From contig CAJHNH020002672.1 in NCBI GenBank assembly GCA_905116865.2, positions 1-64,000 of the forward strand: a DNA stretch of 64,000 bases, written 5' to 3'. Source of the stretch: Candidula unifasciata (Eukaryota > Mollusca > Gastropoda > Stylommatophora > Geomitridae). Shown here in pieces: positions 47,601 through 50,600 of this stretch (the first letter of the stretch is position 1; every line of letters starts with the position of its first letter). The notes beneath the pieces are model-generated. The model was not told where the DNA came from. It made no database searches and was given only the letters and a program-made list of their open reading frames with translations. A program made the position numbers and the translations under genes.

Positions 47601-50600
47601 CTTGTTTTACAACTTGAAATTGCTGGTGCACATCCATGTTACAAATCTGGCTTATTTGTATCCAGACTGCTGATTCCTAGCCTCTCAGGTAGGTGCACTT
47701 TGACTATGAAGGAAACATCTCTAATTATTAGCTTTTACAACATGCTTGTTATAGGGCACTGGATCTACTCAACAACAAAACTGCCGTACAGTTCCTACCT
47801 GTCACTGTTATCATTAGTTCACTTAACAACAAAACTGCCGCACAGTTCCTACCTGTCACTGTTATCATTAGTTCACTTAACAACAAAACTGCCGCACAGT
47901 TCCTACCTGTCACTGTTATCATTAGTTCACTTAACAACAAAACTGCCACACAGTTCCTACCTGTCACTGTTATCATTAGTTCACTTAACAACAAAACTGC
48001 CGCACAGTTCCTACCTGTCACTGTTATCATTAGTTCACTTAACAACAAAACTGCCGCAGAGTTGCTACCTGTCACTGTTATCATTATTTCACTTAACAAC
48101 AAAACTGCCACACAGTTCTTACCTGTCACTGTTATCATTAGTTCACTCAACAACAAAACTGCCACACAGTTGCTACCTGTCACTGTTATCATTAGTTCAC
48201 TTAACAACAAAACTGCCGCACAGTTCCTACCTGTCACTGTTATCATTAGTTCACTTAACAACAAAACTGCCACACAGTTCCTACCTGTCACTGTTATCAT
48301 TAGTTCACTCAACAACAAAACTGCCACACAGTTCCTACCTGTCACTGTTATCATTAGTTCACTCAACAACAAAACTGCCGCACAGTTCCCACCTGTCACT
48401 GTTATCATTAGTTCACTTAACAACAAAACTGCCACACAGTTCCTACCTGTCACTGTTATCATTAGTTCACTTAACAACAAAACTGCTGCACAGTTGCTAG
48501 CTGTCACTGTTATCATTAGTTCACTTAACAACAAAACTGCCACACAGTTCCTACCTGTCATTAGCAAATGAATACATCAACAGCCTCTGCTCTACCACCC
48601 TGCGGAAATCTTCCCGTTCATTGACAAGGTCCCTGTAGACATCATTTGAGACAACAATGCCGTCAGTTTCCACCGCCAGCTTCAGGATGTAGCGGTCGTC
48701 ATAGCAAACCACCCGTCGACCTTTGACCCTGCGAGCTGGAGTGAACACCACGATTCCTTCCTTCTCCAGTTCATTAATAATCTCTTGGTCTAAAATAGTA
48801 AAAGAAAAGTACAGATTACTTCTCTAGCTCAGATGAAGGGAGTTAACTACATGACGACTATTACATCTGATATATCATGATGGGAGAAGATGGCTATCAA
48901 ATTAAGAAGTGAGATATAAGAATGTAAAGTGTATTTTGTGAATACAGTGCTGGAGGACGTAAGCAGTGGCATGCAAGCATGTCATATGCAAGAGTGGCAT
49001 GTGTGACTGAAACAATAAAGATAGGGACATGTATGTCTGAGATGTGTAATGGTTCAGGGTTGTGTGTGTGTGCGTGCATGCTGGCGTGTACAAGTGTAAA
49101 TTATGTATTATATGTCGCATGTATGTATGTAACATGAAAGCCTGTGATATCGGTAAATGACTTGTATGGTCATAACATGAGCAAATGTGACATCTAAGGA
49201 AAGTGACACATAAGAAAGTGACACATAAGAAAGTGACACGTAAGGAAAGTGACACGTAAGAAAGTGACACGTAAGAAAGTGACACGAAAGAAAGTGACAC
49301 GTAAGGAAAGTGACACGTAAGGAAAGTGACATGTAAGAAAGTGACATGTAAGAAAGTGACACGTAAGGAAAGTGACACGTAAGGAAAGTGACTTGTAAGA
49401 AAGTGACATGTAAGAAAGTGACACGTAAGAAAGTGACACGTAAGAAAGTGACACGTAAGAAAGTGACATGTAAGAAAGTGACATGTAAGAAAGTTACATG
49501 TAAGGAAAGTTACATGTAAGAAAGTGACACGTAAGAAAGTGACACGTAAGGGAAGTGACATGTAAGAAAGTGACATGTAAGAAAGTGACATGTAAGAAAG
49601 TGACACGTAAGAAAGTGACCAGCAAGGCTGTACCTGTGATCGGAGCATCTGGCCGAGAAGTCTCCTTCCTCCACTGAGGCACAAATGCTGTGATGTTTTT
49701 GTGGCCACGTTTTCGGAACCAGTCGACTGCAATCTGGATTCCCCGACAGGAGAAGACCTTTTTACCATGGCTATGGTGAAGAAAGAGGAGACAAACAATA
49801 TAACTGCAAGTAAACAGCAGAAAATACCAACAAAAGCAATAGTCTCAACAAAGAAGACACCAACAATAGACTGCACAATTAACTAACTGCCTGACATATT
49901 TTGCTGTATCTCGGCAGATTCATACTTCATTTACACTTCAATAAAAGAAAGTAAATAAGTGAATCCTTTGCAACTGAAGTACAAATCTAACCACTCTCAC
50001 AAGCAACTGACTGTTTTACCAGGGCAAGCACAGGCTGTCACTATCATGTCTTTCTGTTATGTCAGGCAATACAGTGCAATCTATTGGTTGTGTCGTCTTT
50101 GATCAAATTTACAACGGGGAAACACTGTCCTGAACCGCAAGTATTTTCTTTTGGTTCAGTCCTTTTTGCTGCAAGCACAGTCTGTTACTTACTAAATCTG
50201 TCCATCTGCTTTTATGATCTTCATCCTCTTCTGCCTGTCCTCTCCCAAAAAAGAAGAGATCCCCCTATTAGCCCCACACAGACTTCTCATGACTGGATTT
50301 TGTAACTAACGTTTTCAAGATAAGGTAGCCCATCTCACGCCAACACTACCTAGCTGCTTCTTAGAACATACATGGTAGGTTATATTTTATATTTGTTATC
50401 TTAATCCCTCACCAAGGTGTCTTAAATGAAGTCCAATTAATCAATTTGGAGCATGCATAGCAATCTCTCTCTGTGTGTGTGTGTGTGCGTGCGTGCGTGT
50501 GTGTGTGTGTGTCTGTGCAATCTGGATGGGACAAATTCCAGAAATGTGATGGAATAAGAGAAATGTCTGGACAACCACCGCTATAGCAAATGTCTGGACA

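Follow-up and report, generated by a model that had tools for sequence, protein, structure and literature searches.

The window considered here is a 64,000-nucleotide stretch of contig CAJHNH020002672.1 from the snail Candidula unifasciata, and its central feature is a 54-base minisatellite that begins at the splice donor of exon 4 in a ribonuclease (RNase) gene. The gene lies on the minus strand (42399-57967), and the whole-gene model gives five exons encoding a protein of 1351 amino acids that, judged by its domains, is a member of the Regnase/ZC3H12 family. The Zc3h12a-like NYN RNase domain (PF11977) occupies residues 452 to 605 (E value of 3.1e-63), a UBA-like domain (UBA_6) occupies residues 345 to 386 (E value of 1.2e-12), and a CCCH zinc finger begins at residue 622, after the RNase domain. 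The Pfam domain search listed no CCCH model for this protein; both the RNase domain and the CCCH zinc finger can be aligned over almost their full length to solved ZC3H12C and ZC3H12A chains. The best database match, the annotated C. unifasciata protein P0001, is 100% identical to residues 146 to 1351 of the model (1206 residues) and starts at an internal methionine in exon 2. A first-pass annotation of this DNA had named the gene and joined exons 4 and 5 at 48555 and 44688; that donor, that acceptor, and the reading frame agree with the whole-gene model, and the annotated protein has the same junction. By the published description of the assembly, the annotation pipeline took in RNA sequencing (RNA-seq) data from the species itself (PMC8496239).

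All of the gene features that follow are on the minus strand. Exon 4 (48555-48789) is 235 bases long, ends in TGACAG, and is matched identically by the annotated protein across its length. Intron 4 (44689-48554; 3866 bases) contains four tandem arrays after merging, the first of which is flush with the donor. Exon 5 (42399-44688) is the last coding exon and encodes the zinc finger and the C-terminal region, both of which would be lost if a decoy donor within the array were used.

Tandem Repeats Finder (TRF) places the array at 47767-48560, with a period of 54, 14.7 copies, 95% matches, and 0% indels, and the mean identity of units 1 to 14 is 96.1%. Read unit by unit, the spacing is exactly 54 bases throughout. 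The intron start, 48554, is the start of unit 1, and the real exon 4-intron 4 junction, TGACAG/GTAGGAACTGTGTG (48541-48560), thus opens the array; units 2 to 14 are full, and unit 15 (from 47798) is partial, ending at 47767. The last six bases of exon 4, TGACAG, stand ahead of every unit. GT is present in 13 of the 14 units downstream of the real donor, these being units 3 to 15 (47767-48446), while unit 2 (48447-48500) has CT at 48500 and reads CTAGCAAC. Nine of the 13 GT-bearing decoys equal the real donor across positions -6 to +8, and the remaining four read GTGGGAAC (48392), GTAAGAAC (48122), and GTAGCAAC (48176 and 48068). Eight unit types are present among 14 units, with distinct variants between units. 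No copy of the unit was found elsewhere in the window, all 16 matches of a two-unit query falling within the array, and the order in which the units grew could not be read from their similarity (Spearman coefficient of similarity against distance, -0.105; permutation P = 0.80).

Donor scores were derived from human donor frequencies and a U1 5' end, and they serve to rank sites and are not snail specific. The real donor scores 8.66 bits, the highest of the gene's four donors (the others range from 5.0 to 7.7), with a U1 duplex energy of -10.7 kcal/mol, and nine decoys equal it in both score and pairing energy. The decoy of unit 9 (48069-48122), CAG/GTAAGAAC, lies above the real donor at 11.22 bits and -11.0 kcal/mol; the three weaker GT decoys score 7.97, 4.9, and 4.9 bits, and unit 2 is dead as a donor (-8.38). 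Ten of the 14 downstream units consequently score at least as high as the real donor, and in intron 4 outside the array, only 1 of 250 GTs reaches that score (47253; 9.58 bits). The first-pass annotation had described about 14 copies of a 54-bp unit reiterating the exon 4 donor, at least 12 of them with an intact GT, one copy without GT at about 48495, and one stronger than the real site at about 48115-48125. TRF and the unit listing reproduce that description nearly base for base, with the GT-less copy at 48500, the stronger one at 48122, and the count of intact donors at 13.

The variation among units gives no sign that the decoy donors are being kept. In units 1 to 14, the partial unit 15 being left out of the count, four of nine donor positions vary, versus five of 45 other positions (Fisher P = 0.033), which counts against upkeep of the decoys. 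RNA structure at the donor was also considered. A 164-base segment around the donor and the first two units gave no better folding than its shuffled versions (z = -0.37; 63 of 200 shuffles as good or better), and folding that hides or exposes the donor was rejected on this comparison.

The register between array and donor exceeds chance. The gene's introns outside the array contain TGACAG five times in 10,698 positions and do not contain TGACAGGTAGG. A placement test, designed post hoc, randomized the eight arrays of this gene within their introns; 0.56% of trials set an array directly against a donor, and 1.1% set one directly against a splice junction of any kind. At least one donor had an array no more than 15 bases away in 8.6% of trials (P = 0.086), and at least two donors did in 0.25% (P = 0.0025). 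In the gene itself this holds for two of the four donors, and a donor is copied only by the intron 4 array. The other is a 15-base array in intron 3 (49187-49619), found by TRF, that starts 14 bases after the exon 3 donor; its plus-strand units read CACGTAAGAAA and hold ten sites of at least 7 bits, which are donor-like but antisense to the gene, and scoring found no site of at least 7 bits on the gene strand of this array. Both strands were scored for 21 arrays, picked by hand from 64 TRF rows, with overlapping rows and most short or low-complexity runs left out. Sites at least as strong as the real donor number 11 in the array at 47767-48560, the real one included, three in a 37-base array of intron 2 (52823-53895), where all three are on the gene strand, and none in the other 19 arrays. 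At a cutoff of 7 bits, repeated sites also appear in 36193-36687 (five, minus strand, outside the gene) and 15813-16061 (three, plus strand), and one further scored array holds a single site. Donor-like units as such are not unique in the window, and it is the register with a real donor that sets the exon 4 array apart.

The array probably arose by duplication across the junction, as the first-pass annotation had proposed. The end of exon 4 is coding (AAT GAC AG/G, for Asn-Asp-Arg). Among 204 listed homologous proteins, made up of the best 120 of 900 and the best 120 of 1941 matches with overlap between them, 201 span the junction; NDK or NDR is found in 187 of these 201, and Phe-Met comes next in all 201. 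A fish protein, P0148, and P0139, which is closest to mammalian ZC3H12C, depart from the family sequence exactly after NDK, and P0178 departs earlier; the sequences of P0148 and P0139 suggest that the exon 4 boundary is old in animals. Because the exon end is both coding and conserved, the exon copy of TGACAG is likely the original, either carried into the repeats or serving as microhomology in the first duplication. The six exon bases, shared flush with conserved coding sequence, support a duplication across the exon 4-intron 4 junction. A further part of the proposal, a longer likeness between CTAATGACAG and CTAATGATAACAGTGACAG, did not hold up; chance gives such a likeness in 9.4% of trials (P = 0.094), and it was dropped as a trace of the duplication. 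A literature search on intron gain by junction duplication yielded nothing that we judged relevant, and one on VNTRs with cryptic splice sites in their units found no paper.

What decoy use would do to the protein can be read from the frame. Intron 4 is in phase 2 and starts with GTAG, so every extension reads arginine and then stop. All 14 possible extensions, as well as retention of the whole of intron 4, yield the same 589-residue product, which keeps the RNase domain and loses the zinc finger. The expectation in the first-pass annotation of an immediate in-frame TAG and a product cut before the zinc finger is upheld in this respect, but the stop is not special; it is generic for any phase-2 intron starting with GTAG (xxG-TAG) and bears no sign of design. 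Nonsense-mediated decay (NMD) is elicited by a stop lying more than 50 to 55 nucleotides (nt) before a junction. For units 3 to 15, the stop would be 104 to 752 nt ahead of the new junction, distances that should be enough for NMD by that rule, and for unit 2, the GT of which is lost, the distance is 50 nt. As a separate observation, P0139 is a mammal-like ZC3H12C of 373 amino acids that ends at NDK and comes from short contigs (10 member sequences and 17 contigs, the longest of 1713 bases). It may be a read-through product into the corresponding intron of another species, which we regard as a lead and not as proof.

Arrays of this kind are known from human genes. Intron 18 of ABCA7 carries a variable-number tandem repeat (VNTR) whose first two bases are the canonical GT of exon 18, with 23.7 units in the reference, and splicing from the donor of the next unit keeps one unit in the transcript and brings in a premature stop (PMC5954066). 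There, one-unit retention makes up about 2 ± 1% of transcripts independently of VNTR length; longer VNTRs are accompanied by more skipping of exon 19 and lower total expression, and the authors state that the drop in expression is not due to the proportions of retention transcripts (PMC5954066). The likeness to the snail gene is that the array begins at the exon's real donor and has further donor units downstream. The comparison with ABCA7 is by description only, its VNTR having a frame-shifting unit of 25 bases and a highly polymorphic length of 298 to 10,678 bp, versus the 54-base unit of the snail. Unlike ABCA7, the snail array has the exon's last six bases before every unit, leads to an immediate stop, and is followed by the last coding exon. 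In ABCA7, length affects both total expression and the skipping of the internal exon that comes next; snail exon 5 carries the stop codon, and exon skipping of the ABCA7 type is therefore not open to the snail gene.

Human IFI6 is a second case, with a minisatellite of 12-base units that was the subject of a 1995 paper. Two downstream units of the IFI6 minisatellite serve as donors, giving rise to three messenger RNAs (PMC4526556). Minisatellite units thus act as alternative donors there too, but the extra IFI6 units encode different isoforms, whereas every snail decoy leads to a stop. In intron 11 of human PAH, a U1-dependent splicing enhancer lies downstream of the natural donor (PMC5933811); this resembles the snail case in having a U1-binding sequence just inside the intron and differs in being a regulatory motif tested by mutagenesis, with no repeat array. 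With the real donor in its first unit and donor sequence kept downstream, the snail array shares the layout of donor-carrying intronic minisatellites of the ABCA7 and IFI6 kind. Judged by its layout, it is not a new architecture but a mollusc case of this type.

We consider it reasonably probable that this is a minisatellite anchored at the junction, that definition of exon 4 at its own edge makes it tolerable, and that the decoys are used little and unproductively. The repeated segment consists of the last six bases of exon 4 and about 48 bases of intron 4, which would have been duplicated in tandem, and TGACAG may have been the microhomology that started the duplication. The array would then have expanded and been homogenized within intron 4, with the result that the real donor now sits in unit 1 and is followed by 13 more. 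The spliceosome most likely stays with 48555 because it recognizes exon 4 as an exon as far as its true end; the decoys would be used at a low level. Where a decoy was used, the predicted outcome is an Arg-stop right after the RNase domain and either a degraded product or a minor protein without the zinc finger. On this view the array is a by-product that a genome rich in minisatellites tolerates, and unproductive transcripts would cost it little if anything. We take the many other tandem arrays that TRF detects in the window to be in line with such a by-product. The low one-unit retention described for ABCA7, which has the same architecture, is taken in favor of low decoy use, and the 48555-44688 junction of the annotated Candidula protein, with RNA-seq in the pipeline by its published description, is counted for use of the canonical donor.

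Several points weigh against this interpretation. When identical donors compete in duplicated-site experiments, the winner can be the intron-proximal donor, which would predict heavy decoy use. Factors can push the choice between competing donors either way (PMC5585400). One decoy, at 48122, is stronger than the real donor. The variability at donor positions comes from few events, as units share mutations. The loss of GT in unit 2, the nearest decoy and the counterpart of the one used in ABCA7, could hint at selection against that decoy, with which it fits, although it is a single event with a 1-in-14 chance of falling there. In ABCA7, the retention of about 2% was measured before NMD was blocked, and a translation block substantially raised stop-bearing transcripts (PMC5954066). 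The same study has alternative transcripts, mostly from exon skipping, together exceeding the canonical one in 90% of the samples from one brain region (PMC5954066), and a donor-carrying array thus need not be harmless.

The first-pass annotation had also surmised that copy number might tune output. More units would bring more decoy use and with it more transcripts that read Arg-stop, so that full-length ribonuclease would fall or protein without the zinc finger would rise. Thirteen GT decoys, nine of them identical to the real donor, with the same stop from every extension, would suit such a device, as would the stops of units 3 to 15, which lie beyond the 50- to 55-nt limit for NMD while unit 2, at 50 nt, has lost its GT. 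Array length can matter, in that exon 19 is skipped more and total expression is lower with longer ABCA7 VNTRs (PMC5954066). However, the decoy donors of units 1 to 14 show no sign of conservation, and in the same source one-unit retention stays at about 2% whatever the VNTR length, which speaks against tuning by decoys (PMC5954066). We regard tuning through decoys as unsupported and disfavored, and the scheme as a whole as unlikely.

Slightly less likely still is that the array helps splicing, U1 at the repeated sites supporting the real donor or preventing premature polyadenylation within the 3.9-kb intron. As described in the PAH study, a natural 5' splice site can be enhanced by U1 that binds downstream of it (PMC5933811), and poly(A) hexamers lie in intron 4 downstream of the array (AATAAA at 45472; ATTAAA at 47600 and 45657). 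An AT-rich intron of 3.9 kb may well contain three such hexamers by chance, however; the real donor is already the best of the gene's four (8.66 versus 5.0 to 7.7 bits) and would need little help, and the repeated sites are without sign of conservation.

We also think it improbable that the array or its copy number was created or altered by assembling and polishing noisy long reads. The published Candidula assembly is described as built from PacBio RS II reads with wtdbg2, with Racon and Pilon polishing and 150-base Illumina reads (PMC8496239), and since 150-base reads cover fewer than three units, unit-specific variants may have been smoothed or misplaced if the window belongs to that assembly, as the protein match suggests. 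Against an artifact stand the PacBio N50, given there as 9.9 kb and far above the array length (PMC8496239), and the distinct variants per unit, with eight unit types in 14 units. Recursive splicing, in which each CAG/GT would serve as acceptor and then donor and the intron would be removed in 54-base steps that leave no trace in the messenger RNA, is scarcely credible and was rejected on pyrimidine tract and acceptor context: AG directly precedes GT in all units but one, so that a donor would be restored on ligation of exon 4 at that point, but pyrimidines before the AG make up 35% in the four units looked at versus 76 to 88% at the four real acceptors, and steps of 54 bases would be very short introns.

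Other features of the window were recorded. A dispersed repeat is present at 47110-47450, 55805-55983, and 56477-56639 on the minus strand and at 23988-24146 and 62026-62195 on the plus strand, with part of a copy at 35274-35347. The copies are 71 to 77% identical to the first (47110-47450) over 74 to 181 bases, and three lie in introns of the ribonuclease gene, in the gene's direction. By eye the repeat looks like a short interspersed nuclear element derived from a transfer RNA (tRNA); ARAGORN found no tRNA in the window, and Rfam gave no match there that reached its gathering threshold. The array at 36193-36687 has an 81-base unit, 6.1 copies, and 99% matches, and one plus-strand frame is open through it as a 27-residue repeat, TPDLPALILTPDKPNSIVKVEQPTSVI, broken near 36473; it may be an exon with coding repeats. 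Open frames at 141-845 (plus strand) and 3800-4370 (minus strand) contain the reverse-transcriptase-like motifs FADDT and FADDQ and, judged by eye, are probably fragments of long interspersed nuclear elements. Two similar open frames on the minus strand (TSTYTTYCT-ACTMASCKGID...), at 9403-9780 and 10132-10419, each adjoin a 53- or 27-base array, which suggests that a block of array and unique sequence was duplicated.

The exon 4 array repeats in nature the classic experiment with duplicated splice sites: behind one real donor come 13 copies, nine of which share its U1 pairing and its first intron bases. The identical decoys differ from the real donor mainly in upstream context, and junction reads would weigh exon context and position against donor sequence outside the vertebrates. 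An array of the ABCA7 kind, which in humans is linked to the risk of Alzheimer's disease, can arise independently in a mollusc, and such arrays may form repeatedly where minisatellites are born at the edges of exons. A broader idea, which we advance only as a long shot, is that minisatellites in the snail lineage tend to arise at or near splice donors and that fast-evolving rows of donor copies determine, by degrees, how much splicing is unproductive in many genes, the ribonuclease gene being one visible case. Were decoy use in fact to scale with decoy number, the length of the array would act as a rapidly evolving dial on an enzyme of RNA decay.
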